A DNA stretch of 64,000 nt from Elioraea sp. (GCF_022842375.1 NZ_JALHPR010000024.1:1-64000); one strand, 5' to 3'. Shown: positions 4,106 to 64,000, numbered from the stretch's first letter. Made by a program: numbers and translations. The notes: generated from the sequence alone by a model not told the origin.

Positions 4106-5125
4106 ATGACCGGAGACGGTCACCCGAACGAACGCGCAATGACGCCGGTGCCACGCCGGGCACTCGTGGCGGCATTTGCCGTCATGGCCGGCTGGGCGTC
4201 GCTGAGCATGCCCGCGCGCGCCCAGGCACCCTGGCCCAATGGCCCGATCCGCTTCGTCGTTCCCTTCGCGCCTGGCGGCACGACCGACATCATGGCCCGC
4301 CTCGTCGGCGAACGGCTGCAGGTGCGGCTCGGCGTTCCCGTGGTGGTCGAGAACCGCGCTGGGGCGGGTGCGACGGTCGGCAGCCTGGTGGTGGCTCAGG
4401 CCGCCTCGGATGGACAGACGATCGTGATGAGCAACATCGCCAGCCACGCGATCAGCCCGAGCCTCTACCGCAACATCCGCTACGACCCGGTGAAGGATTT
4501 CGCGCACATCGCCATGGTGACGGTGAACCCCTCGGTCATGGTCGCTAACCCCAGGTTCGAGGCGCAGAGCCTCCAGGCCTATATCGCACTCGCGAAGGCG
4601 AGGCCCGGGCGCGTGGACTATGCGACGTCCGGGGCCGGTTCGTCGAACCACCTGATCGGCGTGCGCCTCTCCCTCGCCGCGGGGGTCGAGCTCAACCACA
4701 TCCCCTATCGCGGCGCCGGCCCCGCGATGACGGACGTGATCGCAGGCGTCGTCGGCGTGATGTTCGACAGCCTTCCCTCCGCCGCCTCGCATATCCGCGG
4801 CGGAAGCGTGAACGCCCTCGCCATCTCCTCGAATGAGCGCAACCCTGCGTTCCCGAACGTGCCGACCTTCCGCGAGGCGGGCGTCGACATCGTGTCCTAC
4901 TCCTGGTTTGGTGTCTCAGCACCCGCGGGAACGCCGGCGGCGATCGTGGCGAGGCTCAATGCCGAGATCCGCGCAGCGGTGGCCGAGCCTGCCGTTGCGC
5001 AGCGGCTCGAGGAACTCGGCGGCAGCCCGCGCGACTGGACGGCGGAGCAGTACACCGCCTTCGTCGCAGAGGAGTTCGCTGCCTGGGCGCCGGTCGTGCG
5101 CGCCTCGGGAGCAACGGTGCAGTGA
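4106..5125 (+). CDS. tctC: Tripartite tricarboxylate transporter substrate-binding protein (TctC/Bug)
   Basis: Signal peptide then WPNGPIRFVVPFAPGGTTDIMARLV; alternative ATG at 4139. Confidence 0.9.
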   Translation: MTGDGHPNERAMTPVPRRALVAAFAVMAGWASLSMPARAQAPWPNGPIRFVVPFAPGGTTDIMARLVGERLQVRLGVPVVVENRAGAGATVGSLVVAQAASDGQTIVMSNIASHAISPSLYRNIRYDPVKDFAHIAMVTVNPSVMVANPRFEAQSLQAYIALAKARPGRVDYATSGAGSSNHLIGVRLSLAAGVELNHIPYRGAGPAMTDVIAGVVGVMFDSLPSAASHIRGGSVNALAISSNERNPAFPNVPTFREAGVDIVSYSWFGVSAPAGTPAAIVARLNAEIRAAVAEPAVAQRLEELGGSPRDWTAEQYTAFVAEEFAAWAPVVRASGATVQ

Positions 5126-47751: not shown

Positions 47752-48261
47752 ATGACCAAGAGCATGAAATGGCTGCAGGCGAAGGCGCCCGGATTCAATC
47801 ATCTCGCCAAAGATGAGCAGGCCGCGATTACTGACTTCGCGCTACTCTGGAGCCTGTTCGAGTCCCGCGTCCTTGACACCGAGGGCAACGTCAAGGCGAT
47901 CTGCGGCGCGGTCGAGGCGTGGCAGGAGACCGGGAGGCTCGATGCTGACGCCTTCAACCCCGAACTCGGCTACTTCCGGCAGCGCTATTACGCCGATGGC
48001 GCCTTCACCTATCACTTCGACCATCTGCATTTGAGGAATCCCGACCGCGAGGCCCTGGTACGTGCCGTGATCGACGGCAGCGACAACGACCCATGCAGCC
48101 GCATGGCCGCCGTCCTCATCATCGTCTTCCGCTATCGCAACAACCTCTTTCACGGCGTGAAATGGCAGTACAAGCTGCAAGGCCAGCTCGGCAATTTCAC
48201 CACCGCGAACGACGTGCTCATGAAGGTGCTGGAACGGCACGGCGCACTCGCTGACGGATAA
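47752..48261 (+). CDS. HEPN-like protein (RNNLFH motif)
   Basis: Helical 169-aa ORF with IIVFRYRNNLFHGVKW (R-x4-H). Confidence 0.6.
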   Translation: MTKSMKWLQAKAPGFNHLAKDEQAAITDFALLWSLFESRVLDTEGNVKAICGAVEAWQETGRLDADAFNPELGYFRQRYYADGAFTYHFDHLHLRNPDREALVRAVIDGSDNDPCSRMAAVLIIVFRYRNNLFHGVKWQYKLQGQLGNFTTANDVLMKVLERHGALADG

Positions 48262-48298
48262 GAGCGCCGGCGCACGCCCACGACGGCCGGAACTGTCC

Positions 48299-49069
48299 AT
48301 GCCCGATACCAACGACGCCATCCCGCCAAACCTTGCCAGCCTTCATGCCGGGGAAGAATTCCTGCGCGACAAGGCAATCGGTCTCATCGCTGGCGATGAG
48401 CGCCTGAAGTTGCACCTGACCATCACCGAAGCGGCCATGGACCTCGCAGATGTCCTGCGCCAATTCGAAACCGCCGACGAGGACCTCAAGGTCATCCAGT
48501 TGCTTGGGATGCGCACCTTCAATGCCTTCGGCGCGAGCGTGAAGCTTGCTCTATCGGGCTACAGCCAAAACAGCGCACTGATACTGCGTGACGTGCTCGA
48601 GACGGTCTTCCTGATCGACTATTTCGCCGGCGACCGAACCCTGATCGAGCGTTGGCGTTTCGCCGACAAGAAGGCGCGCCTAAGGGACTTCGGACCGGTG
48701 AAGGTTCGCGAGGCCCTCGACGCCCGCGACGGTTTCACCGACAAGAAGCGCTTCGCGATGTACGAAATGTTCTCCGAGCTCGCCGGCCATCCCACCATGA
48801 AGTCTGCCTTCATGATGCGGCCGCAGCGCGACGGCGACGCGGTCATCGGCCCGTTCATGGAGACGACGACCTTGGAAGCCGTCGTCTCCGAAATGGGTCG
48901 CCTCGCGATCCAGGTTGGCGAACAGCTCAACCTGTTCTTTCCAGCCGACTGGCCGCAGGGCCTTCCGAGCCGCCTCGCCTTCACCAAGCTCAAGCAGCGC
49001 TGGATCGCAACCTTCTACCCAAGTCCTGGTCACGCAACGCCGACGTCCGATAAGCCCGACGGCGCGTGA
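48299..49069 (+). CDS. Hypothetical, DUF5677/HEPN-like helical protein
   Basis: SALILRDVLETVFLIDYFAGDRTLIERW and YEMFSELAGHPTMKSAFM. Confidence 0.45.
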   Translation: MPDTNDAIPPNLASLHAGEEFLRDKAIGLIAGDERLKLHLTITEAAMDLADVLRQFETADEDLKVIQLLGMRTFNAFGASVKLALSGYSQNSALILRDVLETVFLIDYFAGDRTLIERWRFADKKARLRDFGPVKVREALDARDGFTDKKRFAMYEMFSELAGHPTMKSAFMMRPQRDGDAVIGPFMETTTLEAVVSEMGRLAIQVGEQLNLFFPADWPQGLPSRLAFTKLKQRWIATFYPSPGHATPTSDKPDGA

Positions 49070-49084
49070 CCGTCGGGCTCGTCA

Positions 49085-49522
49085 TTACGATCTGCCAGAT
49101 ATCCGGGTCCAGACGCGGCGCCAGAAGCCCGGTTCCTCCTTGGGCGGAACGGGTTGAACCGAAGGTTCGACCTTCGGTGACTCCCCGTAGAAGCGCGCTT
49201 TGGCGGTGCGATCCCGACGACGCTCGGCTTCGACCTGCTCGTCACTCCACGGGCCGGCCTCGATCACTTTGCCGCGGTCGATCACATAGTGCGACCGGCA
49301 CTTCAGTGTCCAATTGCCGATCGACGGGCGCAGCGAGATGGTCTCGCCGTCGAACGTCATCTTCCAGTCCGTCGGCGTGAGGGGCGCCACGACCTCCTCG
49401 CCGCAACCGCAGCAGCAGCTGTGGGCCGATGTCGCATATTCCATCGAGACATAGAGAATGCCCGCCTCAAGGCGCTCCGGGATGTGTTCGACGAAACGAT
49501 GGTCGAGTCGCTTGTGTCGCAT
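49085..49522 (-). CDS. DUF6527-like Cys/His-rich protein
   Basis: MEYATSAHSCCCGCGEEVVAPLTPTDWKMTFDGETISLRPSIGNWTLKCRSHYVI; ATG overlaps the ThiF stop (ATGA). Confidence 0.7.
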   Translation of the reverse strand: MRHKRLDHRFVEHIPERLEAGILYVSMEYATSAHSCCCGCGEEVVAPLTPTDWKMTFDGETISLRPSIGNWTLKCRSHYVIDRGKVIEAGPWSDEQVEAERRRDRTAKARFYGESPKVEPSVQPVPPKEEPGFWRRVWTRISGRS

Positions 49523-50694
49523 CACGCGAGGTCCCCATTGATCAGCATGTTGCCGTCGGTGGTGTAGGTGCAGTGATGCTCGCGCTCGAGGTCCCGGTAG
49601 AAGCCTCGGATCTTCTTCCACTTAACGACCGCGAGGACCGCATTCAGCGCGTTGAGGTCCGCGACCTGGATGTTGGAGGCGTAGATGTCCTTGGCGCCGC
49701 CGCCGACGAAGGAAATGCGCTGCCGCGCATGATCCCGTTTCTCCGGCGTGCTGGCGGTCACCCGTAGGATACCGCCGAGCGACCCCTCGTCGAGCTCAAG
49801 ACCCATGCCGACATCGACGAACGCGGCGCCGATCGCCTCAAGCTTCTCGACGATCAACCGCTTCGCTTCGCCGGCGTCGAGGGATAGGAACGCGAAGGTG
49901 ACACCGTCGAGAAGGTGCAGGTTGTCGGCCCCGAGCTCGACATCGTGCGCCACGATGTTGCGGTGCATCCGGCTATAGACGCGCTTCAGATAGTCGACCT
50001 TCTTCGGCGCCTCGCGCAGTTCTTCCAGGCTCGGCGCGCCGGGCGCACGAAACGCGTTGTGGGTCAGGAACTCGTCGCTGTCGAAGAGCCGGATCTCGCG
50101 AACCGGCGTCTTGGCGACGAAGTCCAGGATGTAGCCGCCGGTGCCGCCGCCGCCGATGATGGCGACCCGCTCGTTGACGAGCCGCTCGGTCAGGACGCCG
50201 ATACCGACACGGTCGGAGGCGGTCTCGACATAGTTGAAGACGCTGTCTTCCTCTTCTTCCGGTTCGCGGAAGGTGCGAGCGGTCATGCCGGGCTTCAGCA
50301 CCGCAGCGGGCCCCGCGATGATGTTCGCGTAGCTCGTCATCTTGTGGTGGTAGTCCGTGTAGCCGCCATCCGGCTTGCTGGAGAAGCTGTGTGTCGCTTT
50401 GAGGCCGTGGCCGAGGTCGAAGGCGCCGGCCTGATGCGAGATCCCCTGGATAGGTGTCCCATCTGCGCGGCATGGGAAGTCGCCATCCCAGTGGACGACA
50501 TGGGTGTCGGGCGTGCGCGTCGCATCGCCGGCCAGCGTGAGGCTCGAGATGAGGGTGCCGATGCGCACCTCCCGATGCGCATCGACATAGGGCACCTCCC
50601 GCATGACGAGATGCCCGCCCTGCCGCTGGACGAAGTAGCCTTCGTCCCGCAGCCGCTTGAGGTCGAGATTACGACTGAACAGTTCGCGTGACAT
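49522..50694 (-). CDS. ThiF/E1-like adenylyltransferase with N-terminal accessory domain (DUF6791-like)
   Basis: VAIIGGGGTGGYILDFVAKTPVREIRLFDSDEFLTHNAFRAPG nucleotide-binding motif. Confidence 0.85.
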   Translation of the reverse strand: MSRELFSRNLDLKRLRDEGYFVQRQGGHLVMREVPYVDAHREVRIGTLISSLTLAGDATRTPDTHVVHWDGDFPCRADGTPIQGISHQAGAFDLGHGLKATHSFSSKPDGGYTDYHHKMTSYANIIAGPAAVLKPGMTARTFREPEEEEDSVFNYVETASDRVGIGVLTERLVNERVAIIGGGGTGGYILDFVAKTPVREIRLFDSDEFLTHNAFRAPGAPSLEELREAPKKVDYLKRVYSRMHRNIVAHDVELGADNLHLLDGVTFAFLSLDAGEAKRLIVEKLEAIGAAFVDVGMGLELDEGSLGGILRVTASTPEKRDHARQRISFVGGGAKDIYASNIQVADLNALNAVLAVVKWKKIRGFYRDLEREHHCTYTTDGNMLINGDLA

Positions 50695-51415
50695 TGAACA
50701 CCGTGCCTTTCTTCTTGACGTCGACCGAGCCGCCGGCACCGAGTTCGCCCGCGTGCGGCGTCGACGCCGCATGCCGATAGGTCATCGAGAAGACGACGTT
50801 GGGCTCGTGCTGGCCCGGGAAGGCGAGCTGGACGATCTGCTCGAACGTGACCGTGCGGGCATTCACCGTGCGCGGCCGCGAATTGACTATGATCTCGAAC
50901 GTCAGCCGCGCGGTGATGAACCGCTCGATGCCGGGCTCGGCCAGATCGATCATCTCGCCATGCTCGATCAGGCGATCTTCGCCGCCGGGGACCTCGAGGA
51001 AAACGCCCTCCCCCTCGCCCGGCTTGGCGAGGCCGTAGAGCACCGCACCGCTGAGGATGGGCTTGCCCCAGCGCAGCTCGTCGTCGTTCAGCGTGAGCTT
51101 GAAGTCGCGATCCGTCAGGAAGGCGACGAACCGCTCGGCGCCGTGCTCACGCAGGTCGAAGGGCTCGTTCAGCCGCACGTCCTCGAAGTCCCCCGAGGGG
51201 AGAATCGCGAACAGGCTGTAGCCGTCCGGCGGGTCCAGGGCCCCGGCCTCGAGCAACTGACGGCCGAGCGGCACGGGATCGCTCACCTGACGGGACTGGA
51301 AGTTGAGATCGCCCTGCGCGAGCAGGAAGCGATACCCCCGCGCCGGACGCAGCGCCCGGCCTTCGCGCAGGGCGTCGCCGAGATCGTCGTAATCGAGAAG
51401 CTCTTCGGTGTTCAT
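50669..51415 (-). CDS. Multi-ubiquitin-like domain protein (three predicted beta-grasp repeats)
   Basis: C-terminal repeat LTFEIIVNSRPRTVNARTVTFEQIVQLAF...FSMTYRHA...GELGAGGSVDVKKKGTVFNVTRTVQS is multiubiquitin-like; two diverged repeats precede it. Confidence 0.75.
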   Translation of the reverse strand: MNTEELLDYDDLGDALREGRALRPARGYRFLLAQGDLNFQSRQVSDPVPLGRQLLEAGALDPPDGYSLFAILPSGDFEDVRLNEPFDLREHGAERFVAFLTDRDFKLTLNDDELRWGKPILSGAVLYGLAKPGEGEGVFLEVPGGEDRLIEHGEMIDLAEPGIERFITARLTFEIIVNSRPRTVNARTVTFEQIVQLAFPGQHEPNVVFSMTYRHAASTPHAGELGAGGSVDVKKKGTVFNVTRTVQS

Positions 51416-51418
51416 AAG

Positions 51419-51469
51419 ATTGGATCCTTAGGTTCTGCCGCGGCGATGCAGCGGCTCTAAGGGTCCAAT
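51419..51469 (-). promoter_or_regulatory. Hairpin overlapping the Shine-Dalgarno of the multi-ubiquitin gene
   Basis: ATTGGATCCTTAG (51419-51431) and CTAAGGGTCCAAT (51457-51469) complementary at 12/13; AAGGA lies in the arm nearest the ATG. Confidence 0.7.
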
Positions 51470-51496
51470 CGGGGCGAGATCCGCCGACCGGTAAGG

Positions 51497-54400
51497 TCAG
51501 ACGAACTTTTTTCGCAGGGGGCCGTCGGGGGTCTGCCCGCAGATGAAGAAGGCCGGGCAATTCGGGCAGGTGCGCGACGACACCTCTGCCGGAAACCGTC
51601 CAGCGCGGATGTCGCCGAGAAACTTGGCGAGCTTGTCCTTGCGCCCCTTCAGCTCCCGATCCGACAAGGCGAGCGCATGCGTCTCGCCATCGGAAAGATG
51701 GACGAGCTCCGCGACGGCGCCGGGAAAGGCCTGCTGGACCGCCAGCATCAGCGCCGCCGCGCCGACATCCTTGCTCTCGGCCGACCGCCTATGGCCCGTG
51801 CGGATACGACGGACGGTCCGGACGCCGTCCGGCCGCACCAGCACCTCGTCCGGCCGAACGATGATCTCTTCGCCGCCGAAATTGAGGCTGAGCGCGACCG
51901 GCGCCTCGGCGACCGCGTCGGCGCGATTGGCCAGGAGGAAGCGCAGCATCGCCAGCGCCAGGTCGCGGAATTCTGCGCGATAGCCATGGTCGCCGAGGCC
52001 CTGACCGGCAAGCGCCGCGTCGGTGCGATCCTCCAGGTCCCGCTCGGTTATAGGGCTATCCGACGTGATCACCCCCTCGACCACCACGCGCACCGCCTCG
52101 TGAAGGTGCATGAAGGCGGTGGCGGTCCGCCGCCCGCCGACCTGCAAGACATGCGTGTAGAAGAAGCGGCGCGGGCAGGACTCATAAAGGGCTATTTGCG
52201 CGGCCCCGAACTGCAGCCGTCCATCGACGATCAACTCGATGCCCTGAGCTTCCGCCGCCATGGGAAGCGGCCGCGCCGGCACGACCGAACGGCGCGTCAA
52301 GTTGGTCCCGAGACGGTCGAGGAATGGCGATAGCGGTCGATTGTGGCCGTTGCTCTTCTCGGTCGGCGCATAAAGGATCAGCCGGTCGCGGGCGCGCGAC
52401 TGCGCCACGTAGAACAGGCACTCCTGCTCCTCGGCCTGGCCCGCGCGGAACGCCTCCAGCGCGCTGCCTTCGGCCCCCGCGATCATGCCGTCGGGCGCCG
52501 GACAGGGCGGCGCCGGCGGCGTGCGCGGGATGGTGTCGCTGTTGAGCCCTGGAATATGGACACCGCCGAACTCCAGGCCCTTGGCGCCATGGATGGTCAT
52601 CAGCCGCACGGCGTCGAGATGCTGGGCGGCCGCCGGAAGCTGACGCAGGTCGCGATCGTCACCGAGACGGACAAGCCTACGCACCCGATCGAGCACGCGC
52701 GTAATCGGCAGTCCGCGGCCGGCCGGCTGGACCCGCAGGAAGTTGAGGAACTGCCAGATCGCGATGCCGCGCGTGCGATCGGCGAGGTCCGCCGACCCGC
52801 CAAGGCGCGCGGCGATGCTGGTGCGATCGAGCAGCAGCGTCGCGAGCACGGTCCAGGGCGCGGCCGTTTGGTCGAAGCCGCTGAGCGCGGCCGCGAGCTT
52901 GGCGAACGCCTGGCGGCCGGCATCGCCGACGCCGGGGATCGCATCCACCTGCTGGAGCCAACTGCCCGGGGCGTGGTCGGTCGCCCGCAGATGCTCGAAG
53001 ATCGCCGCCACGTCCGCAAAAGAGATCGTGAAATCACGCCAGCAAGCGATGCGCACTAGGCCCATGGCGCGCCGATCGACAAGGACGGAGAGCAAGGCCA
53101 GGAGATCCTTGACCTCGGCCCGCTCGAATAGGCTGCCCAGAAACAGCACGGGCACACCAAGCCGCTCAAGGTCCTGCCCGATCGTCGACAGCTTCTCATT
53201 GCCGGTGCAGAGGACCGCTTGGTCACGATAGGCATAGCCCTCTCCACGAAGCGCCTCGATCGCGTCGGCCAGGGCCACTTGCTGCTGCTCGGCGCGCTGC
53301 ACCGTGCGCAACTCGGGCTTCTTGCCGTTGCCGTCGCGCTCGGCGTCGAGACCGCTGTCCGCGTCGCCCGCGCGCATCGTGATCGCGAAGCCGGAGAAGC
53401 TGGCGACGATCTCCGGCACCGAGCGATAGTTGCGCTTCAAGCGGCCGCGCATGCCGCCGGGAAAGTCCCCCTTCCCGAACCGGGTCATGTTGAAGGACGA
53501 CGCGCCCCGAAACCGATAGATCGACTGCTTGGCGTCGCCGACCATCCAAAGATTGCGGCCGCTTGGCCGCAGCGCGCTCAGCAAGCGCACGCTGCTGCGG
53601 TTCACGTCCTGATACTCATCGACCAGGACGTGGTCGTATTGCGCCTGCAGCGTTGCGCGGATGGCCGCGTCGGTCTCGAGCAGCTTGACCGGCAGGGCGA
53701 CAAGGTCCCCGAAGTCGACGCAATGCGCGTTGCGCTTGAGCTGTTCATAGGCGGCGTAGACACGGGCCACCTCGCCGGCGCGTTCGGCGGCGTCGCGTCC
53801 ATCAGGGTCGCGAGCTTTGGCAAGCATGGCGGCGGCGAGCGCAGCATAGGTCTCGGCGTCAACCACCTCGTCCTTTGCCCGCGACACCGCGGCCAGCATG
53901 TCGGCGATGATCTGGGTTGGATCGTAGAGATTGCGGTAATGCGCGAGCCTCAGCCGCGGGAACTCCTCCTCAAGGAGCTCGACCGCCTCGGTCCGATCCA
54001 TCATCCGCGGGTCTTTCGGCAGCCCGAGCTCGGCATGGAAACGACGGATGATATCGAGACCGAAGGCGTGGAACGTGCCGATCCACATCGCGGCCGCAGC
54101 CTCGGGCCGCTTGCGCGCAATGCGCTCCGCCATCTCGCCCGCCGCCTTGTTCGAGAAGGTGAGCAGCAAGATGCGCCGCGAATCGACACCTTCCTCCAGA
54201 AGGCCTTCGACACGCGCGATCAGCGTCTGCGTCTTGCCGGTGCCGGGGCCCGCCTCGAGCAGATAGGCTTCGCCGCGATGCGCTGCGGCCTCGGCCTGCA
54301 GGGGATTGAGCGGCCGCTCGACATGCGTCGCGGCCGCGGCAGGCGGCACCGCTGGCAGGAGCAAAGCGTCGAACAGCTGCTGCGCGACGACCTCGAACGG

Positions 54401-54898
54401 CGCGCCGAGCTTCGCGGCGATTGCGGAGGCGGGGAGCCCCTGGTCGAGATGGAGCACGCGCGCGACAGTGCGCGGCAGCAGCAGCTCGCGCGCAAACAGG
54501 TCCATCTGGACCTCGCGGCGCTGCCGGCGTCCATAATCGACAACCCGATCCATCCCGACCGGCGAAGGCTCGGCCGCGCGAGCCGGATCGATCGTCGGCG
54601 CGGGTTCGCTTTCGGGATCGTCGCCGAGCTCGACATGGCCAATCTCGTGCGCCACGAGGAAGGCCTGCTCGAAGCGAGACCCCACGCGCTCGTGAAGGAT
54701 CAGATCGTCGGCGGCGACGAAGGTTGCGCGACCGCCGTTGAGGACGGCCGCGCCGACGGCCGTCGGTTCGACATCGATCCCGCGCCGCTTGGCCTCAGCG
54801 ACCGCAAAGTCATAGGGCGACCAAGGATCGGCGCCGGATGCGACGAGGCGAGCATGAAGCTCGGCAGCGATTTGCCTGGCGAGCTCCACGCCGTCCAT
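51497..54898 (-). CDS. ImmA/IrrE metallopeptidase - UvrD-type helicase - PD-(D/E)XK/4Fe-4S fusion
   Basis: LVAHEIGHVELG plus FARELLLP; Walker A EAGPGTGKTQTL; LVDEYQDVNRS; C-terminal SRTCPNCPAFFICG. Confidence 0.88.
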   Translation of the reverse strand: MDGVELARQIAAELHARLVASGADPWSPYDFAVAEAKRRGIDVEPTAVGAAVLNGGRATFVAADDLILHERVGSRFEQAFLVAHEIGHVELGDDPESEPAPTIDPARAAEPSPVGMDRVVDYGRRQRREVQMDLFARELLLPRTVARVLHLDQGLPASAIAAKLGAPFEVVAQQLFDALLLPAVPPAAAATHVERPLNPLQAEAAAHRGEAYLLEAGPGTGKTQTLIARVEGLLEEGVDSRRILLLTFSNKAAGEMAERIARKRPEAAAAMWIGTFHAFGLDIIRRFHAELGLPKDPRMMDRTEAVELLEEEFPRLRLAHYRNLYDPTQIIADMLAAVSRAKDEVVDAETYAALAAAMLAKARDPDGRDAAERAGEVARVYAAYEQLKRNAHCVDFGDLVALPVKLLETDAAIRATLQAQYDHVLVDEYQDVNRSSVRLLSALRPSGRNLWMVGDAKQSIYRFRGASSFNMTRFGKGDFPGGMRGRLKRNYRSVPEIVASFSGFAITMRAGDADSGLDAERDGNGKKPELRTVQRAEQQQVALADAIEALRGEGYAYRDQAVLCTGNEKLSTIGQDLERLGVPVLFLGSLFERAEVKDLLALLSVLVDRRAMGLVRIACWRDFTISFADVAAIFEHLRATDHAPGSWLQQVDAIPGVGDAGRQAFAKLAAALSGFDQTAAPWTVLATLLLDRTSIAARLGGSADLADRTRGIAIWQFLNFLRVQPAGRGLPITRVLDRVRRLVRLGDDRDLRQLPAAAQHLDAVRLMTIHGAKGLEFGGVHIPGLNSDTIPRTPPAPPCPAPDGMIAGAEGSALEAFRAGQAEEQECLFYVAQSRARDRLILYAPTEKSNGHNRPLSPFLDRLGTNLTRRSVVPARPLPMAAEAQGIELIVDGRLQFGAAQIALYESCPRRFFYTHVLQVGGRRTATAFMHLHEAVRVVVEGVITSDSPITERDLEDRTDAALAGQGLGDHGYRAEFRDLALAMLRFLLANRADAVAEAPVALSLNFGGEEIIVRPDEVLVRPDGVRTVRRIRTGHRRSAESKDVGAAALMLAVQQAFPGAVAELVHLSDGETHALALSDRELKGRKDKLAKFLGDIRAGRFPAEVSSRTCPNCPAFFICGQTPDGPLRKKFV

Positions 54899-54899
54899 C

Positions 54900-55478
54900 T
54901 CAGTCGGTCTCCGCCAACAGCTGGGCGCGCTTCTCGGCCGGGACGCCGGCGTCAATCAGCACTTGCTCGAAGCTGACCTGCTCGCCGGCCGTCGGCTTAC
55001 TGTCCGCCTTGTAGCTGCGCGCGCCGGCCAGTTGACCCGGCCCCCAAGACGCTTCCAACTGCGCCACGGAGCTTCTCGCCGCCTCGGCGAATCGCTGGAG
55101 AAACCGCCGCGGGATGCTCACGAGGGATACCCGCCGTTCGCGCAGTGCGGTCACGACCTGTCGAGGCACATCCAGACCTCGGGCCACTGCGCGCCAGTCA
55201 TCGACCGTCAGCGCCGCAAAAGGGTCGGCCGCCGCCGCCGGAGAAGCCGCGGCGTGTTGCAACCATGCCGTGTTGATCAAGGCCTGGTCGGCACCGGAAA
55301 GTGGTGCGGCTTCGTCACAGGCTTCGCGACTAAGCTCGCGCGAGAGGTCGATCAGCTCCCCGGCATATTCCGGGTAGAGCCGCAGATAGCGCTCCAAGGT
55401 CGATCGACCAGGCTCGCTCTCGACCGCAAACGCGTCGAGCACAGTTTCGCGGGCGGGACGTGCGCCAGCGGGACTCAC
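54900..55478 (-). CDS. Hypothetical regulator/adaptor between the sigma-like and ImmA-UvrD genes
   Basis: 4-bp overlap with the upstream gene, 1-bp gap to the downstream gene; LERYLRLYPEYAGELIDLSREL. Confidence 0.6.
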   Translation of the reverse strand: MSPAGARPARETVLDAFAVESEPGRSTLERYLRLYPEYAGELIDLSRELSREACDEAAPLSGADQALINTAWLQHAAASPAAAADPFAALTVDDWRAVARGLDVPRQVVTALRERRVSLVSIPRRFLQRFAEAARSSVAQLEASWGPGQLAGARSYKADSKPTAGEQVSFEQVLIDAGVPAEKRAQLLAETD

Positions 55479-56266
55479 CGCTCATCTCCGTCGGCCATGG
55501 CCGCCCGTAGTGCGGCGAAGGCCTTGTCGCGATAGGTTCGAACAGTCTTTTCGGAGCGGCCCAGGGCTTTCGCGATGGTCATGACGTCCGGCTCCTTGGA
55601 GTCGATGGGAAAGCCTTGCCTCAGCATGTGAATGATCCTGCTTTGTTCTGTCGGTAGAGCCTCAATCGCCGCATCCAGGCGCAACCGGTAAGCCGGATCG
55701 TCGAAATCCGACGCGGCGAACGGGTCGTAGACCCCCGCGGCCGCCTCGACCTCCGGCGACAGCTCGCCGCTCTCCTCGTCAAATTCGAGGGGCTGGGAAC
55801 GGTTCTCGTCGCGCCAAGCCTGCTCCTGCGCGTCGCGCCGCAGACTTGCCAACGCGCCGTCAAAGCGCACCTCGAAATAGTCGACCTTGTCGACATAGCC
55901 GGCGCGATCCGCCGAAAGCAGCTCGACGAACCGGCCGAACACCTTGTCGCGTATGACCCCGCGCGTCAGCGACTCCGTCTCGCCGTCAACGCTTTCCGCC
56001 CTGGGCAGACTACGCAGCACCCGTTCGGTCAGTATCCTATAGAGGCGCTCGAACCCCGCCTCATTATTGTCATGGCGGCTCGCGCGCAGGAAATAGACGA
56101 GACATTCGCTGGGGATATAGCCTGGGTCGGCGCGCTTCGTGATCGCGGCCCTGGCGATCAATGCGTCACGCGGCATGACCGCCAGTTCGGCGATGAGCGC
56201 TTCTATCGTCGGGTCGCGCGCATAGAGCTCTCCGGTGACGCGCCGTTTTCGCAGCGGCGTCACCAC
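55475..56266 (-). CDS. Sigma-70 region 4-like transcription factor
   Basis: AIEALPTEQSRIIHMLRQGFPIDSKEPDVMTIAKALGRSEKTVRTYRDKAFAALR; GTG start. Confidence 0.7.
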   Translation of the reverse strand: MVTPLRKRRVTGELYARDPTIEALIAELAVMPRDALIARAAITKRADPGYIPSECLVYFLRASRHDNNEAGFERLYRILTERVLRSLPRAESVDGETESLTRGVIRDKVFGRFVELLSADRAGYVDKVDYFEVRFDGALASLRRDAQEQAWRDENRSQPLEFDEESGELSPEVEAAAGVYDPFAASDFDDPAYRLRLDAAIEALPTEQSRIIHMLRQGFPIDSKEPDVMTIAKALGRSEKTVRTYRDKAFAALRAAMADGDER

Positions 56267-56362
56267 CGCCTCGTCCGCACGGTGCGCATCAGCCTCCAGC
56301 TTCGTGCCGGCACCCTCCCCCAGCCTCGCCCGATCGTTCCCATAAGAAGATCGATCCCTATT

Positions 56363-57310
56363 CTATGAAAGCGCGTCGCGGAGCGATTGCAACAACGCCT
56401 CCGCTTCGTCGATCTTCTTCAAGATATCCACGTCCCCTTTGAGTTCCTGCAGGGTCGAGAAAGGGACCTTTTTCATCGCGTCTACCGCAGCTTCAAGATC
56501 GCCGGACAAGCCGCCCTTCACCGGCTTAGGCGCGGGCCCAAGGCGCAGCATCGCCGACTCCAAATCTCCTGCATCGCTCAGAAACTGCGAACGCGCGACT
56601 GGATCGGGCAAGATCGTGCGGAGCTTCCGAAGGTCTTTTGAATTGGTAATGCGCTTCTGGTTGACCTTTTTGACCACGGCTTCGATGACGGTCGGCGTCA
56701 GTAGTTTCTTGCTCACCCCCATCAACTCACGCGACCAGGTGATCGCGGCGCCGGGGTCACGGAGACTGGTGAATTTTTCTGAGAGCTCAAATACATCGAC
56801 CAGCTTGTCGAGCTCACGCACCGTGATGCCGAGGATGTTGGCGGCGCTCGACCGGCCCATCATGTCGACCAGGCGATAGGCCACCATTTCCTTTTCCTTG
56901 GCGTCCCATTCCTTCCGCTGGCGATGGATATAAATCCAGACCCGAAGTCGGTCCTCCTCACTCAAGGTTCGGTCGGTAACCTCGATTGGGATCTGCCGAT
57001 AATCTTCCTTCCCCTGTTCCACCAAAACCCGCGAGTTGGTCCACCGGCGGTCGCCGTCGATGATCCGGAATTTTCCCGATAGATCAGGATGTGGCTCGAC
57101 AAGCAGGGGTTCGAAGAGGCCGCCATTCGCTTCGATCTGCCGCTGCAGCTCTTCATCGATCTTCGGGCCCATGCGGGGCTGCTTTTCGTTCGGCACGATG
57201 TCGTCGATATCGGCCTTGGTCCGGTACGTGCGCAGGACGGTACGATCGAGCCGACGCTCCTGAAGATTGATGATGTTGTCGCGCTGCGGGATGACCTGCG
57301 GGCTCGTCAT
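56363..57310 (-). CDS. ParB/sulfiredoxin N-terminal domain protein
   Basis: IVPNEKQPRMGPKIDEELQRQIEANGGLFEPLLVEP...RIIDGDRRWTNSRVL. Confidence 0.85.
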   Translation of the reverse strand: MTSPQVIPQRDNIINLQERRLDRTVLRTYRTKADIDDIVPNEKQPRMGPKIDEELQRQIEANGGLFEPLLVEPHPDLSGKFRIIDGDRRWTNSRVLVEQGKEDYRQIPIEVTDRTLSEEDRLRVWIYIHRQRKEWDAKEKEMVAYRLVDMMGRSSAANILGITVRELDKLVDVFELSEKFTSLRDPGAAITWSRELMGVSKKLLTPTVIEAVVKKVNQKRITNSKDLRKLRTILPDPVARSQFLSDAGDLESAMLRLGPAPKPVKGGLSGDLEAAVDAMKKVPFSTLQELKGDVDILKKIDEAEALLQSLRDALS

Positions 57311-58935
57311 TGAGGACTCTCCGGCGCGGACGCCGTACCGATGATGGAGTCGATCTGATTGCGCAATTCAGCCTGCACTTTCATGGCGGCGCGGATGGCA
57401 AGACCCTGCTGCTTCCAGACGTTTTCGTGGGCTTTGACCTCCTTCGTCTGAATATCCAGCAGCGACTCCGCCAGTTCGTCCAGCCGCGCGAATGAATCGG
57501 CGCACTGCTGGGAAGTAATGAAACTGTACAGGGCCGCGGTTTTCTGGGTGCGTTCGGCGTTGCTCATGCGCAGGGTGTGAGATTGAACCAGATGGGCGCG
57601 AACGAGCTGGATGAGGGCGACGACCCGCGCCGGGCACGCGATCACGACACCATCCTGGATATGCAGCTGCCGGGCGCCGGCCGGGAACTTGCTGGACGAC
57701 AAGACGGCGTGGTCGGCCTGCGCACTCAACTGGTCCGACCGCAGTTTGGTCACGAAATCATTTCGCCACGCGTTGTGGTTCTTCGAATCGTAGATGATCG
57801 TGCCGCACTCCTGTCCGTTGTGAATAACGGTGTGCAGGATGTCTGCGCCTTGCTGGCCCTTGGTCACGCGCACGATTCGATCACCATCGAACTCAGTCTT
57901 CAGCGCTTCAAACAAATTGATTTCGGCGCCTTCGCCTAGCTCTTCGGCCGTCTTCTTCTCAAGGGCGCGTTGCAGTTCTTCCACCTTGTTGGCCAACTTC
58001 TGGCGCTCTTCGAACGTAGCCGACTTCTCGGCGTTGACAGCCGCTGTCTTGTCTGCCTCAAGGGCCTCACGCTGTTCTTGCAGCCGCTCATTGAGCTGGG
58101 CTTCGTGGGATTCTTGGAGGCTTTTCGCTGTCGCCTCCGCAGCGGCCGCCTTGGCTTCGGCGTCTGCCTTGGCCTGTTCGGCGGCGCCAATCTGCAGCTG
58201 CGCCGCGGCCTCAGCGGCCGCGCTGACTTCAGCGCGGACTTCCACTTCGCGGGCGGCCGCCTTTGCCTGGACGTCCGCCAAGGCCTGCTCGCTGGTCAGT
58301 CTGGCTTCCGCCAGTTCGGCCTTCAGCGCCTCGCCGGAATTTTCGGCGGTCACTTTCTGAGCCTCCACTTCCGCCAGCCGACTCGCAGCCGCTTCCGTGG
58401 CGATGCGCGCCGCCTCTGAGCGGATCGTGTCTTCCTGCGCCGCCGCGTCCGCCTTCACCTTCTCGATCGCGGCGGCGGATTCATGCTGCACCTGTTCGAG
58501 TTGGCCCTGAAGCGCGACCTTCGCCGCGTCAGCGTTGGCCTTCTCGGTCGCGGCCTCGAAGGTCTTGGCTTGAAGCGCGTCCTGGGCTGCAACGCGCGCC
58601 GCTTCCGCCGCGTCCACCCGCGCCTTCGACTGGAGCTCAGCGGCCAGGCGGGCCTGTTCTCTGGCCTCGGTGATTTTTTGGTTGGCTTCTAACCGTGCAC
58701 GCTCGAGCGCCTCTGTCTTCTCGGTGTCGAACTTCTCCTGCAGCCGCGCGGTGATAGTGGCGGACTGCGCCTGCTCACGCGCCTGCAGCCGCTCAGCGAC
58801 CTCGTCGGCGCGGTCGTGTGTGATGGCCTGCTCGCAAACCGGACAGACGTCGTCAACCGGATGAAGGTGGTGGATGGGACTGGAACGCACGGTCGACGCT
58901 GCTGAGGTCTGCGGATTCGCCATCATGGCCTCCAT
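57307..58935 (-). CDS. DUF2130 domain protein (predicted PD-(D/E)XK-like nuclease with long coiled coil)
   Basis: N-terminal VCPVCEQAI Zn motif; coiled coil; GTIIYDSKNHNAWRNDFVTKLRSDQL. Confidence 0.82.
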   Translation of the reverse strand: MEAMMANPQTSAASTVRSSPIHHLHPVDDVCPVCEQAITHDRADEVAERLQAREQAQSATITARLQEKFDTEKTEALERARLEANQKITEAREQARLAAELQSKARVDAAEAARVAAQDALQAKTFEAATEKANADAAKVALQGQLEQVQHESAAAIEKVKADAAAQEDTIRSEAARIATEAAASRLAEVEAQKVTAENSGEALKAELAEARLTSEQALADVQAKAAAREVEVRAEVSAAAEAAAQLQIGAAEQAKADAEAKAAAAEATAKSLQESHEAQLNERLQEQREALEADKTAAVNAEKSATFEERQKLANKVEELQRALEKKTAEELGEGAEINLFEALKTEFDGDRIVRVTKGQQGADILHTVIHNGQECGTIIYDSKNHNAWRNDFVTKLRSDQLSAQADHAVLSSSKFPAGARQLHIQDGVVIACPARVVALIQLVRAHLVQSHTLRMSNAERTQKTAALYSFITSQQCADSFARLDELAESLLDIQTKEVKAHENVWKQQGLAIRAAMKVQAELRNQIDSIIGTASAPESPQ

Positions 58936-58950
58936 AGTTTTCTAGGTCCT

Positions 58951-58978
58951 ATTTTCTCCTAATTTATCCTGAAGTCAA
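58951..58978 (-). promoter_or_regulatory. Candidate sigma-70 promoter for the DUF2130-ParB genes
   Basis: Minus strand TTGACT-N16-GAAAAT, 15 nt before ATG 58935. Confidence 0.45.
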
Positions 58979-59118
58979 CCCCTCTGACCAAGCGGATGGC
59001 CCGCGGGCCGATATTGGAGACCACAAGCCGAGGCAGCTGGCCTCGATCTCGGGCGAGTTCGGCATCATAGCGCCGCGCGATGCACGGTGAGCTTCATCGG
59101 TGCAGATTAGCGGCGCGC

Positions 59119-60261
59119 TCATTCGAAGACTTGATGCATCAGGGCTGGAATCAGGTGATCAAGTTCGCCTGCGACCCCACGCTGACCTGCCTGAACGTCG
59201 CTGGCTTTTTGTTGAAGGTCGTCGAACCAGAACTGCGCATCCATCGATGGCAATGGAATCTCGATAGCCGCCAGCTTCCTCTGACTGAGGGTCCTGTTTC
59301 GATCTGCACTGCCAGGCGATGCCGCTTGAACCTGTGCTAGTCCTGCATCGCTCTGGAGAAAGTACCACAGGAAGTTCGGTGTCGCGTTCCTGGTATCGAC
59401 CACGCACGTGAGATAACGGTGAGAGCCAACCTTGCCGTGGTGCTCCGGTTTCGCAACGGCGAAAGCTCCCTCCCACGCCTTGATATTGCTGAAGACAATA
59501 TCCCCGCAGTGAATTCGGAAGGGTTTTTGCCATGTTAATTCGCCGCCAATGACGTCCGGCTTTTTGAACAGTCCTTTGCCGAAGGACCGAACTCCAAGTT
59601 CTGCGTAAACCCCATTCGATTCAAGCTCGACAGGTCGCCGCAATATCGGCGCGACGTCCCCGATCGCGACGCGCGGAGCGCCTGCGATCACCTTCCGAAA
59701 CGCTGCCTCCATCGTTGCGTTGAGCTCCGCGCGCGCGGTATCGGCCGTCCAACGCAACGTCTTCAGTTGCAACGCCGCGCCGTCGAGCTTCGCAATGATC
59801 CGACGTTGCTGCTCGATCGGCGGAAGGGGGATGGCATGATCGAGAAGACGCCTGGGATGCAGCCTCTCTCGGCGGGCGCCGATTCCCTTCCCGCCTGAGG
59901 CTAGCTGGCGCCAGACGCGATTCTGCCTGAAGTACCAGCCCAGGAATCCGGGCTCGAGTTGCTCATGATGCAGGTCGAAGGTCGGGAATTCGTTCGAGAC
60001 GAAATACCCGTCGACCTCTGGCGAAACGATCGCATAAGCGCCTTCAAAAGACTTCAGGCGGCTATAGATGAATTGGCCCGCCCGGATTCGAAACAACTGC
60101 GTGGCAGCCATCTCCCGCCCAGTGACCGCCGCGCGCTGAATCATCCCGCGACCGAATCCATAAACGCCCGCGATTGGATAGTCGCGGTCGGGCTCCACCC
60201 CGTGAGGGTCCGGTGCGTAGGTAAGGAGTTCACCCAGTGGAATAAGCGGAAAGCTCGGCAT
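59119..60261 (-). CDS. hsdS: Type I restriction-modification specificity subunit HsdS
   Basis: Two half-repeats each ending in IPLPPIEQQRRIIAKLD / IEIPLPSMDAQFWFDDLQQ. Confidence 0.88.
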   Translation of the reverse strand: MPSFPLIPLGELLTYAPDPHGVEPDRDYPIAGVYGFGRGMIQRAAVTGREMAATQLFRIRAGQFIYSRLKSFEGAYAIVSPEVDGYFVSNEFPTFDLHHEQLEPGFLGWYFRQNRVWRQLASGGKGIGARRERLHPRRLLDHAIPLPPIEQQRRIIAKLDGAALQLKTLRWTADTARAELNATMEAAFRKVIAGAPRVAIGDVAPILRRPVELESNGVYAELGVRSFGKGLFKKPDVIGGELTWQKPFRIHCGDIVFSNIKAWEGAFAVAKPEHHGKVGSHRYLTCVVDTRNATPNFLWYFLQSDAGLAQVQAASPGSADRNRTLSQRKLAAIEIPLPSMDAQFWFDDLQQKASDVQAGQRGVAGELDHLIPALMHQVFE

Positions 60262-60264
60262 GAC

Positions 60265-61821
60265 CTACGCGCGCTCCGCCACGAGCGCCTTGATCTCGTT
60301 CAAGACGGCCAGCACCTGTTGCTCTTTGGCGATGGCGCTATCGACAATTTCCGCCGGCAAGCGGTGATCGATCGCCGCCTTCGCGTGTGGATTTCTTAGA
60401 TCCAGATCAACCGCGACGACGCGCCCCTGCTCATCGCGCTTGATCAAATCGGGACCCGACACCTTCCATGCCTGCGAGCCTTCCTTGCGGTCAGACCACC
60501 AGGCTCGGCAATCGTCGAACTCCTCATACTGCAGCGGCAGTGTCTTGGAGTATTTCCGCCGACCTTCCGGAAGCGGTTGCTCCCAGTACCAGACGTCGCG
60601 CGTCGGACCGGACGTATCGAAGAAGATAATATTAGTCGGGATGTCGGTGTAGGGCGCGAAGGTGCCGTCGGGCAATCGGACGACGGTGTGAACATTGAAC
60701 TGTTCCAGAAGGTCGGCTTTGATCCGTGCCGCAATGCCGTCGCCGAAGAGGATGCCGTGCGGCACGACGACGCCGGCGCGCCCGAGTCCGCCGCGTTTGA
60801 GTCGCCGCATGATGAGCTGCAGAAAGAGCAGCGCCGTTTCGGTGGTTCGGCGATCCTCCGGAAAATTCGTGAGGATGCCGGCTTCTTCTTCACCGCCGAA
60901 CGGCGGATTGGTCAAGATGACTTCGACCCGATCTCGCTCACCGATCTCCGTCAGCTTGAATCGCAGTGCGTTGCCGAATTCGATGTCGGGCGCTTCGATC
61001 CCGTGCAGCAGCAGGTTCATCTGCGCTAGCAGGAACGGAAGCGAGGAATCCTCGCCGCCACGCAAGGTCTTGCGCTGAAGGATTTCGCGTTTTTCGACCG
61101 TGCTGGCTTGCGGCTTCATTTGGTCAAAGGCAGCAGCCAGAAACCCGCCCGTGCCGCAGGCAGGATCGAGCACGACTTCGCCGAGCTTGGGATCGATCGC
61201 CTCGACCATGAAACGCACGACGGGACGTGGCGTATAGAACTCTCCGTTCTGACCCGCTGCATCGCGCATCTCGCGTAACAGAGTCTCGTACATCCGGCCG
61301 AGGGTCTGAATGTCCTCGGTGCTATCGAAATGGATGCCATTGATCAGGTTGATGACGTCCCGCAACACATACCCGCTGGTCGCGTAATTCCGAAGATCGC
61401 GAAACACCGCAGAGACCACGTCGCGCCGCTGCCGACCGGCGCCATTGCCGCGTAGGCCGCGGAGGAAAGCGAACAGACCCGGGCCTTGCGTGCCGTCGGC
61501 GCGAACGGACTGCTCGCCATTGATGAACGAGAGCAGATCCGGCCCGGTGATACCCGCGGGATCGGCCGCCCAGTCTCGCCAGCGGTAAGGCGCATCGATC
61601 AGGAGACGGTACGGTTCGCCAGCGAGCACCGCCTCATCCTCATGGACGCGCTCCATGTCGTCGACGAATTTCAGGAACATCAGCCAAGTGAGCGTGGGCA
61701 GCCGCGTGAGGTCCGTCTTCAGCTCCCTGTCCTTGCGCATTTTGTTGCGCGCGGACTTGATGAGGCTGTCGAGTCGCTGCGCCGTGGTTTTCGGCGAAAT
61801 GATCTTCTTCTCACGGGGCAT
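60265..61821 (-). CDS. hsdM: Type I restriction-modification N6-adenine methyltransferase HsdM
   Basis: FYTPRPVVRFMVEAIDPKLGEVVLDPACGTGGFL; VILTNPPFGGEEE. Confidence 0.95.
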   Translation of the reverse strand: MPREKKIISPKTTAQRLDSLIKSARNKMRKDRELKTDLTRLPTLTWLMFLKFVDDMERVHEDEAVLAGEPYRLLIDAPYRWRDWAADPAGITGPDLLSFINGEQSVRADGTQGPGLFAFLRGLRGNGAGRQRRDVVSAVFRDLRNYATSGYVLRDVINLINGIHFDSTEDIQTLGRMYETLLREMRDAAGQNGEFYTPRPVVRFMVEAIDPKLGEVVLDPACGTGGFLAAAFDQMKPQASTVEKREILQRKTLRGGEDSSLPFLLAQMNLLLHGIEAPDIEFGNALRFKLTEIGERDRVEVILTNPPFGGEEEAGILTNFPEDRRTTETALLFLQLIMRRLKRGGLGRAGVVVPHGILFGDGIAARIKADLLEQFNVHTVVRLPDGTFAPYTDIPTNIIFFDTSGPTRDVWYWEQPLPEGRRKYSKTLPLQYEEFDDCRAWWSDRKEGSQAWKVSGPDLIKRDEQGRVVAVDLDLRNPHAKAAIDHRLPAEIVDSAIAKEQQVLAVLNEIKALVAERA

Positions 61822-61834
61822 TCATGGTTCTTCC

Positions 61835-64000
61835 CTAAGCGGCGTACAACAGGCCGGACATTTCGTTGACCGCGTCGCGGAGTTTGTCCGGACCACCGAA
61901 GCGGCGAGCGATTTCGCTCGGATTGCCGAACCCAGCCAGCGGCGGCACCTTCAAGATACCTGGCAGGACGAACTGTGCGGCGCCGTGCTCAGCGTATTTC
62001 TCCAGCAGCGCCTCCAGCACGGTCCTCGCATCGGCACCATATCGGTCGAAGAAATCGGTGCGATCTCGCTTGAGACGTTCGGCGCGCTCACGTCGCGTCC
62101 GGAGCGGTGCGTTCCAGGCGAGATGGCAAAGCAGATCGAATGGGTCGTCTTCCGGCCGCCCGGCTTCGTCGGCCAAGCTCTCCAGGTCGATGCCCCGTTC
62201 AGCGAGCGCCTCGACGATCGCGTGGCGCTTGTCGGCGAGCATCCAGTCGGCGCGGAAACTTGAAGCGGTCGGATAAAGCGTGCGGACCTTCTCGCCGGTC
62301 CAGTCCGTCAGTTTCTTGCACGTCAGCCGTTTGCCGTCCGTATCGAGTTCGTAGACCAGATGCGCAACCACTTCGACCGTGCCGCCATCGACGTAGAGTT
62401 TGCGCGGTTCCCCGGGCTCCTCGTCGGCGGGAAGACCACCTTCGAGTTCCGCCCCGACGTCGTCCGGCGCCTCGGGCGCTGGATTTTCCTCTTCCTGGGT
62501 GGTGACGATCTCGCCCTCGGCATCGATCTCTGTGATCGTCTCCACTGTCGGCTCGCCATCGAAATCGGGATCGGCGAACTTTTCAGTCGCGGTGCCGGTG
62601 TAGTCGAGGATGTTGAAGAACAGCTTGTCGTAGTCCTCGCGCAGCCTGGTCCCGCGGCCGATGATCTGCTTGAACTCCGTCATCGAGCCGACCACGCGCG
62701 CCAACACGACGTTCTTGCAGGTCGGCGCATCGACACCCGTGGTGAGAAGCTGAGACGTCGTCAGAATCACCGGGACCTTCGTCTCGACGTCCTGGAAGCG
62801 GCTGAGTTTGCCCTTGCCGATGTCGCCCTCGTCGGCAGTCACACGGCAAGCGTAGTCCGGATAGTTAGCAACGAGATCGGCGTTGAGATTGGCGAGCGCA
62901 CGACGCATCTCGCTTGCATGCTCCTGGTCCACGCAGAACACGATCGTCTTTGCGAAGCGGTCGGTCTGCGCGAGGAAATGCGTGAGGTGGCGCGCGATCG
63001 CCTCGGTGCGCGCGCGCAACGCGACGACGCGCTCGAAATCCTTGGTGTGATACTCGTCGTCGGGAATCTCGCGCCCGAAGCGATCGAGTTCGCCTTTGGT
63101 TGGTCTCCACCCCGCCGCATCATAGTCCGTGACGACACGGTGTACGCGATAGGGCGCGAGGAATCCGTCCGCGATGCCTTGCGCCAAGGAGTAGGTGTAA
63201 AGCGGTGCGCCGAAGTAGGTGTAGGTGTCCCGGTTGTCTTCCCTCAGCGGCGTCGCCGTCATGCCGAGCTGATAGGCCGGCTCAAAATAGTTCAGAATGT
63301 CTCGCCAATTGCTGTCGTCGCGCGCGCTGCCGCGGTGGCACTCATCGATGATGATCAGGTCGAAGAAGTCCGGCGAATATTCCCGGTACAGACCCGGTCG
63401 CCGTTCGTCACTGGCGATGGCCTGGTAAATCGCAAAATAGATGTCGCGGCCATGGCTGATCTCGCCGTTCTCGATCTTGAACCGCGCATCGCCGAAGGGC
63501 GCAAAGGTCTTGGCCATCGGGTCGTCGACGAGAATATTGCGATCGGCGAGGAACAGGATCTTGGGTTTGCGGAAGTCGCCGCGCTTGTTCCACCCGGCGG
63601 TCCACAGCCGCCAGGCGATCTGGAACGCTACCGCGGTCTTGCCCGCGCCCGTGCATAAAGTGAGCAACGCCCGCCGCTGGCCTGTCAGAACCACCTGAAG
63701 CGCGCGATTGACGGCGATCTCCTGATAGTAGCGCAACGGCCTTGAGGGATCGGAAAAACCGGGCGCGAGCAGGCGCTCGGCGGCCGTGTCATCGGTCAGA
63801 CCGAGACCGGCCCGTTGCCGACCCCAAAGCTCTGCGGGCGTCGGAAAGTCTGGCCGCAGGGTTTCCAAGCCGGTGAGAAAATCGAATTCGAGAATCTCCG
63901 CGCCATTGGTGGCATAGGCGAATTTCAGGCCGAGAATTTCGGCGTAGTCCTTGGCCTGCTGCAAGCCATCGGCGGCGGATTTGTACACGGCCTTTGCCTC
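61835..64000 (-). CDS. hsdR: Type I restriction enzyme HsdR (EcoEI-like), N-terminus beyond the window
   Basis: LLTLCTGAGKTAVAFQIAWRL, IIIDECHRGSARDDSNW, GMTATPLREDNRDTYTYFG, IIGRGTRL; the frame continues to the window edge. Confidence 0.93.
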   Translation of the reverse strand, partial: EAKAVYKSAADGLQQAKDYAEILGLKFAYATNGAEILEFDFLTGLETLRPDFPTPAELWGRQRAGLGLTDDTAAERLLAPGFSDPSRPLRYYQEIAVNRALQVVLTGQRRALLTLCTGAGKTAVAFQIAWRLWTAGWNKRGDFRKPKILFLADRNILVDDPMAKTFAPFGDARFKIENGEISHGRDIYFAIYQAIASDERRPGLYREYSPDFFDLIIIDECHRGSARDDSNWRDILNYFEPAYQLGMTATPLREDNRDTYTYFGAPLYTYSLAQGIADGFLAPYRVHRVVTDYDAAGWRPTKGELDRFGREIPDDEYHTKDFERVVALRARTEAIARHLTHFLAQTDRFAKTIVFCVDQEHASEMRRALANLNADLVANYPDYACRVTADEGDIGKGKLSRFQDVETKVPVILTTSQLLTTGVDAPTCKNVVLARVVGSMTEFKQIIGRGTRLREDYDKLFFNILDYTGTATEKFADPDFDGEPTVETITEIDAEGEIVTTQEEENPAPEAPDDVGAELEGGLPADEEPGEPRKLYVDGGTVEVVAHLVYELDTDGKRLTCKKLTDWTGEKVRTLYPTASSFRADWMLADKRHAIVEALAERGIDLESLADEAGRPEDDPFDLLCHLAWNAPLRTRRERAERLKRDRTDFFDRYGADARTVLEALLEKYAEHGAAQFVLPGILKVPPLAGFGNPSEIARRFGGPDKLRDAVNEMSGLLYAA

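Follow-up and report, generated by a model that had tools for sequence, protein, structure and literature searches.

Genes and boundaries of the cassette

The DNA analysed here, referred to as the window, is a 64,000-nucleotide (nt) stretch from Elioraea sp. (NZ_JALHPR010000024.1:1-64000). Its minus strand, on which all features lie unless stated otherwise, carries at 49085-56266 a cassette of six genes in the order sig, p192, an IrrE-UvrD-PDDEXK fusion (the helicase fusion), Ubl, X-E1 and DUF6527. The first three are referred to as the front trio, and the last three form a ubiquitin-like (Ubl) module, which a first-pass annotation had described as a compact conjugation operon.

The Ubl gene (50669-51415) encodes a protein of 248 amino acids (aa) with three PF14452 (Multi_ubiq) matches and a whole-protein E-value of 1.3e-60. 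The X-E1 gene (49522-50694, 390 aa) encodes PF20590/DUF6791 (2.2e-61; residues 11-158 in Pfam), hereafter domain X, followed by PF00899/ThiF (1.7e-7), and the DUF6527 gene (49085-49522; PF20137, 2.9e-25) encodes a predicted zinc-binding protein. Profile search thus bears out the position of three minus-strand genes and their annotation as a multi-Ubl protein with beta-grasp repeats, an E1-type adenylyltransferase and a Cys/His-rich protein. The annotated 26-nt overlap of the first two is exact (50669-50694), and contributes codons to the C-terminus of Ubl as well as to the N-terminus of E1. At the junction of E1 and DUF6527 the sequence is GCGTGATGCG, giving an overlap of TGATG (one base), or of GTGA with a GTG start, in place of the ATGA first assigned; 4-nt overlaps at this junction are present in homologues. 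E1 and DUF6527 occurred together in 89 of 89 homologous loci, and Ubl in 87. The two loci without Ubl are contigs that start inside or at the E1 gene, so that co-occurrence is 87/87 where sequence permits, in line with the conservation predicted for the three genes. Given the strong family match of each protein and this co-occurrence across loci, the three-gene set is not a chance assembly. No E2, RWD or JAB domain was recognised in the three products using Pfam and PADLOC, in agreement with the first-pass annotation.

The sig gene (55475-56266), the first of the cassette, encodes 263 aa with a C-terminal sigma-70 region-4 helix-turn-helix domain (Sigma70_r4_2 in 15 of 17 family members and r4 in 12 of 17; best E-value 1.9e-8). 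The family profile matched solved sigma factors, including FliA (2.3e-7) and the extracytoplasmic function factor SigE, over residues ~147-258. Region 2, responsible for core binding and -10 recognition, was not among the matches listed for the 17 members, in which a diverged region 2 is possible. The p192 gene (54900-55478) overlaps sig by 4 nt and encodes a family-less protein of 192 aa, for which Pfam and PDB searches were empty; weak Death and DUF3102 matches were judged to be chance. The helicase fusion (51497-54898, 1133 aa), with its start codon placed by homologue comparison, joins an M78/IrrE peptidase (2.1e-14), a UvrD/PcrA-type helicase (1.2e-63) and a PD-(D/E)XK domain of the iron-sulfur (Fe-S) type (PDDEXK_1, 4.7e-11). 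Across 50 loci, the peptidase HExxH, the main helicase motifs including Walker A and B, and the four Cys of the Fe-S-type domain were 100% conserved, showing that the peptidase and helicase residues are intact. The PDDEXK core retains one Asp, and its usual D-x-K is replaced (VRRIRTG), so this domain is probably not a nuclease.

Comparison of loci indicated that the inherited, mobile unit is the whole six-gene set, up to 56266, moving between bacteria as one, and not the three-gene operon first annotated. The identical gene order was found in Mesorhizobium, Cereibacter, Rhizobium, a Klebsiella plasmid, the cyanobacterium Leptolyngbya and Acinetobacter. DNA similarity to loci of other hosts formed one block of 7.1-7.2 kb with 86-92% identity, which begins at 56254-56296 and runs to 49046-49185, the edges of the six genes; one locus (L021) represents the same island as the window and is similar beyond these edges. 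The sharp block rules out a coincidental neighbourhood of the trio and the Ubl module. Pairwise protein distances were correlated across all six genes (r 0.92-0.96, 50 loci), which fits joint transfer, and to which shared host phylogeny may contribute.

The front trio was present upstream in 54 of 87 scored loci. Its presence went with the length of the modifier: the Ubl open reading frame (ORF) was at least 200 aa long in 53 of the 54 trio loci, and shorter in 22 of the 25 trio-less loci with enough upstream sequence. A single locus, L065, has the full trio with a short Ubl ORF of ~138 aa, and may be a recombinant or carry a shortened gene. In L074 and L095 several genes are split into two or more frames, as sequencing errors or decaying copies.

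The genome containing the window (4.8 Mb, 78 contigs) carries the Ubl and DUF6527 genes in single copy. Its other contigs contain another strong ThiF gene and JAB-family genes (G000:C37:1563-1880 and G000:C6:59948-60217), and a Prok-E2_E profile matched nothing in this genome, a result that is uninformative as no control matched either. E1 homologues were present in 115 plasmid records and absent from the 50,697 phage records searched. The plasmid homologues are named 'multiubiquitin domain-containing protein', 'ThiF family adenylyltransferase' and 'DUF6527 family protein' by NCBI. DUF6791 was carried by ~2% of sampled genomes of the class (7/385). The Caulobacter vibrioides control genome had DUF6527 matches and no Multi_ubiq match, showing that DUF6527 also occurs outside Multi_ubiq operons.

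Paired boxes and a hairpin before the Ubl gene

Two promoter-like boxes of the form TACCGG-N16-CGATT were found in the cassette, box 1 (55664-55690) inside the 3' part of sig, and box 2 (51467-51493) right behind the helicase stop codon. The gap between the helicase fusion and the Ubl gene is 81 nt long and consists of box 2 followed by a hairpin (51418-51470), of which the 3' arm holds the AAGGA ribosome-binding site of the Ubl gene. The whole 4.8-Mb genome contains exactly two copies of the box, and the chance expectation in the window is 0.04. Searching with the general consensus TWCCGG-N16-CGATT, a box near the Ubl start was detected in 52 of 54 trio loci and in none of the 25 trio-less loci, with a shuffle expectation of 0.04.

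Box 1 has the same spacing as box 2 and codes for YRLRLDAAI in sig. Its Ile codon is ATT in 45/45 loci with Ile at this position, compared with 31% elsewhere in the same genes, and its Tyr codon is TAC in 40/40, compared with 48% elsewhere; this fixed codon choice indicates that the DNA itself is kept. Where sig contains TTCCGG, the gap does too (L051, L054, L057, L061, L062 and L068). In Bil-type loci (L106, L111 and L112), the second box instead lies upstream of sig, in the lineage's own variant, and this position, together with the codon usage, rules out a coding coincidence. The Variovorax locus L112 has two boxes upstream of sig and one in the gap (positions 4227, 4280 and 9200), with CGACT replacing CGATT. 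The boxes look like two promoters or operators of one regulator, and sig, through its region-4 domain, would be the natural candidate for the factor that binds them.

The predicted hairpin has a minimum free energy of -27.7 kcal/mol and a z-score of -6.1 (0/200 shuffles), and the region has no Rfam match. Folding of 20 diverse trio loci, each as a single sequence, gave hairpins with z-scores of -1.6 to -6.6, mostly below -3. In most trio loci the hairpins differ in sequence.

Residues of the Ubl module and its known relatives

The Ubl protein ends in ...NVTRTVQS. Its last residue is Ser in 87/87 loci and never Gly-Gly, so the C-terminal Gly looked for in a conjugated modifier is lacking. The Ubl terminal codons overlap the E1 start, and the overlap may therefore impose part of this constancy. 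Solved relatives of Ubl include 9cd2 (1.2e-28), 8u38 ('BilA'), 9d5b and 9d59. In E1, residues G181/G183/G184/G186, D205/D207, N213, R216, K232 and D273 are invariant in 14 aligned sequences, so that the adenylation site is intact, as conjugation would require. By profile, E1 comes closest to Citrobacter BubCD (3.8e-8) among solved structures. Comparison of loci revealed no conserved Cys in the crossover loop; across the E1 protein, Cys75 in domain X alone comes close to invariance (87/88), being replaced by His or Tyr in the distant loci L009 and L010. The first-pass annotation is correct in its domain assignments, and its reading as a conjugation operon is left in doubt by the Ser-ended modifier and the crossover loop; conjugation would be a putative activity of the Ubl/E1 pair.

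Domain X gave a confident AlphaFold2 model (predicted local distance difference test score, pLDDT, 87), for which a Foldseek search of the PDB returned nothing significant. The E2s Atg10, Rad6, Ube2g2 and UBE2O recur among its weak matches (template modelling scores 0.30-0.34), and hhalign against two bacterial E2 families was negative. An E2 identity of domain X is thus weakly hinted at by the fold search and unsupported by profile comparison. The DUF6527 model (pLDDT 89.8) likewise had no PDB match with Foldseek. Its candidate zinc ligands, H34, C36, C38, C40 and C75-x2-H78, were conserved in 14-sequence and 40-sequence comparisons.

The three-gene core is of a kind already known since 2006. 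The parts of Iyer et al. 2006 (PMC1779556) consulted describe operons (group 6e, polyUbl) that encode one to three Ub-like repeats in a single protein, an E1 bearing either JAB or an unrelated N-terminal 'domain X', and a Cys/His metal-binding protein, and list alphaproteobacteria among their hosts. The window has both the polyUbl repeat protein and the 'domain X' variant of E1, to which DUF6791 would correspond by position and description, so that the layout annotated as departing from the textbook set is not new. The metal-binding motif given there, C-x3-C-x(35-38)-H-x2-C, is close to C36-x3-C40-x34-C75-x2-H78 in the window, with the last pair being C-x2-H. Unlike group 6e in that account, the window lacks an RWD/E2-like domain, and the same parts of the paper do not mention sig, p192, IrrE-UvrD, the boxes or the hairpin.

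Among more recently described systems, Bub (BubA/BubCD; Ye et al. 2026 and Gong et al. 2025, as cited in PMC13373217) has the nearest E1, and the Ubl relatives 9cd2, 9d59 and 9d5b were solved as multi-ubiquitin proteins. The window differs from a Bub operon in lacking JAB and a separate E2-like gene, and its front end is sig-p192-IrrE/UvrD, whereas those of Bub are CapH/P, CapW or CapK/S. CapW or CapH+CapP controllers are found on 219/544 Bub operons (PMC13373217). In the CapH+CapP pair, immune operons including Bub are switched on when a peptidase activated by single-stranded DNA cleaves a repressor (PMC13373217). The pair resembles the front trio in that an M78-type peptidase adjoins a DNA-binding regulator ahead of an immune operon; in the window, however, the peptidase forms part of a fusion with a helicase and an Fe-S nuclease-like domain, the regulator is sigma-region-4-like, and p192 is additional. 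Bil also combines Ubl with E1, and differs from the window in having BilB (E2) and BilC (JAB), while the window E1 is of the X-ThiF type and its Ubl ends in Ser; PADLOC Bil models matched none of the window proteins. Type II CBASS (cyclic-oligonucleotide-based antiphage signalling system) Cap2, an E2-E1 fusion, likewise has a ThiF-type E1 that is extended at its N-terminus. The E1-E2 models of PADLOC, however, match only the ThiF part of the window E1, domain X lacks significant E2 similarity, and no cGAS-like enzyme lies nearby. No description was found of the six-gene, helicase-linked, box-controlled form, nor of a front end common to Bil and Bub-like modules; coverage of the literature was partial, and this is weak evidence of novelty.

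Partners of the front trio and proposed working

Plasmids were searched with the helicase, revealing loci that pair the trio with other modules. In L101 the trio is followed by a Ubl-E2 fusion, JAB-E1 and DUF6527, in L104 by Ubl, E2, ThiF, a phosphotransferase and DUF6527, and in L105 by Ubl, JAB and E1. Four-gene sets follow the trio in Pseudohalocynthiibacter, Aminobacter, Sphingorhabdus, Rhizobium, Xanthomonas and Variovorax. The set on the Xanthomonas plasmid (L111) was identified by PADLOC as BilA (4.9e-57), BilB (3e-60), BilC (2.4e-61) and BilD (6.5e-175), and the trio likewise precedes Bil operons in L107, L112, L128 and L129. The defence link suggested in the first-pass annotation is therefore plausible, since the front module also precedes genuine Bil operons.

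A survey with a p192 profile, chosen to avoid selecting by Ubl, comprised 784 genome searches, 385 at the level of the class and 399 at that of the phylum. Good matches were obtained in 10 genomes, including that of the window, and in 10/10 the match was followed by the helicase and then by a Ubl module (type A, as in the window; UblE2 plus JAB-E1; type F; or Bil). An eleventh, weak match (G326) contained two stops and lacked a module. No non-Ubl partner of the trio was seen in the plasmid loci or in this survey, a small sample in which a profile built from Ubl-linked copies has limited power to exclude other partners. The front end was thus paired with a Ubl module in every case examined, which, within that sample, speaks against a generic immune controller. 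The pairing is one-way, as trio-less Bil operons (L136 and L137) and trio-less X-E1 operons exist. L136 and L137 have Trp (YRPWER) where most other BilB-like E2s have the PCDR cysteine. On a Rhizobium beringeri plasmid (L105, 2486-12989) two Ubl systems lie back to back, one being the trio with Ubl-JAB-E1 and the other a divergent Ubl-X-E1-DUF6527 set without a trio of its own.

We propose, with a probability of about 0.55, that the six genes form a mobile, helicase-coupled Ubl immunity cassette in which the sig-p192-helicase front end switches the Ubl back end. In this pathway, the UvrD helicase would engage abnormal DNA, such as ends or single strands arising from phage or plasmid entry or from damage. 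Because the peptidase is fused to the helicase, sensing would depend on DNA engagement or unwinding, and the engaged helicase would activate the M78 peptidase to cut p192, its likeliest substrate, or a p192-sig complex, with sig as the released activator. Freed sig would then fire both boxes, the one within sig driving p192 and the helicase fusion and the one behind the helicase driving the Ubl module, with translation gated by the hairpin that would hide the Ubl ribosome-binding site. Finally, X-E1 would adenylate the Ubl C-terminus, and domain X, DUF6527 or both may serve as acceptor or adaptor for attachment to a target. The CapH+CapP precedent supports such a helicase-peptidase switch, and the adjoining type I restriction-modification (R-M) operon supports an immune role, which is probably directed against phage.

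Several points weigh against this switch. p192 has neither a recognisable fold nor a cleavage site, sig shows region 4 only, and the label 'sigma/anti-sigma' is guessed from the order of the genes and the shape of the boxes. RNAalifold on one MAFFT alignment of the gap recovered neither the hairpin nor covariation; the hairpins misalign there, and single-sequence folding was used for this reason. A Ser-ended type-A Ubl and an E1 without a conserved crossover Cys make the conjugation chemistry less certain, and the trio-less single-Ubl X-E1-DUF6527 operons indicate that the back end can stand without the front end. A purely regulatory front end would also be expected beside non-Ubl immune operons, as for CapH/CapP/CapK, and none was seen. 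Protection against phage by Bub operons themselves has not been shown (PMC13373217).

The main rival, which is possible though doubtful, takes the helicase as a core part of the machine and not its controller, with Ubl conjugated to the helicase or to proteins on the DNA it engages and the box serving ordinary autoregulation; the cassette would then be a helicase-centred effector, comparable with the UvrD-type helicases of other defence systems. The restriction of the trio to Ubl modules, in the 10 genomes with good p192 matches and on plasmids, is unlike the behaviour of generic Cap controllers and favours some direct link, and the fully conserved helicase and Fe-S motifs and matches of the helicase fusion to PADLOC GajB and DRT helicase models point the same way. 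However, a separate box and hairpin follow the helicase, which is neither fused nor translationally coupled to the Ubl module, Bil has four genes in its PADLOC model, and both Bil and X-E1 operons exist without the trio.

It is unlikely that Ubl and E1 act as a carrier pair of the ThiS/MoaD or MccB type, with the C-terminus activated for sulfur transfer or for nucleotide or peptide modification. The absence of Gly-Gly, the invariant terminal Ser, the lack of a conserved crossover Cys, and the presence of ThiF, MccB and TcdA among structural relatives of the adenylation domain would suit such a role. Sulfur carriers such as ThiS and MoaD, however, require a C-terminal Gly-Gly thiocarboxylate, which counts against it, as do the multi-domain Ubl, its pairing with a zinc protein and with relatives bearing E2 and JAB, the front end in common with Bil, and BubCD as the best solved E1 relative. 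The original view of a self-contained three-gene operon beside unrelated defence-island genes is highly improbable for this lineage: single-Ubl operons with X-E1 and DUF6527 that lack the trio occur widely (25 loci with long upstream sequence), but the sharp-edged homology block, the 54 loci in full order, the correlated distances and the shared boxes stand against it.

The helicase-gated switch may extend beyond the window type. We tentatively suggest, at somewhat less than even odds, a superfamily of helicase-gated Ubl immune systems with one front end, a two-promoter switch and at least five back ends, including Bil. The trigger of bacterial Ubl tagging would then be invading or damaged DNA sensed by the helicase, and the window type would use a serine-ended modifier without a canonical E2 or deubiquitinase. 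A shared DNA helicase-peptidase-sigma module ahead of several back ends, Bil included, suggests that DNA state is the input. In some lineages, the four genes studied as Bil may be missing their natural switch. The cassette offers defined, testable parts in its two matching boxes, hairpin, one protease and one candidate substrate, and its serine-ended Ubl without a recognisable E2 or JAB may represent a minimal tagging system.

The region upstream of the cassette (56363-63988, minus strand) holds a cluster of defence type, comprising genes for a ParB-domain protein (56363-57310) and a DUF2130 protein (57307-58935), and the type I R-M set S, M and R (59119-63988). On the other side, two plus-strand ORFs (47752-49069; 169 and 256 aa), with no family match above the cut-off, converge on the cassette; L021 shares this stretch with the window. 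On two rhizobial plasmids (L012, 11828-17877; L014, 11781-17833), genes for a PD-(D/E)XK nuclease and for another UvrD helicase come after the cassette, in an AddAB-like layout.

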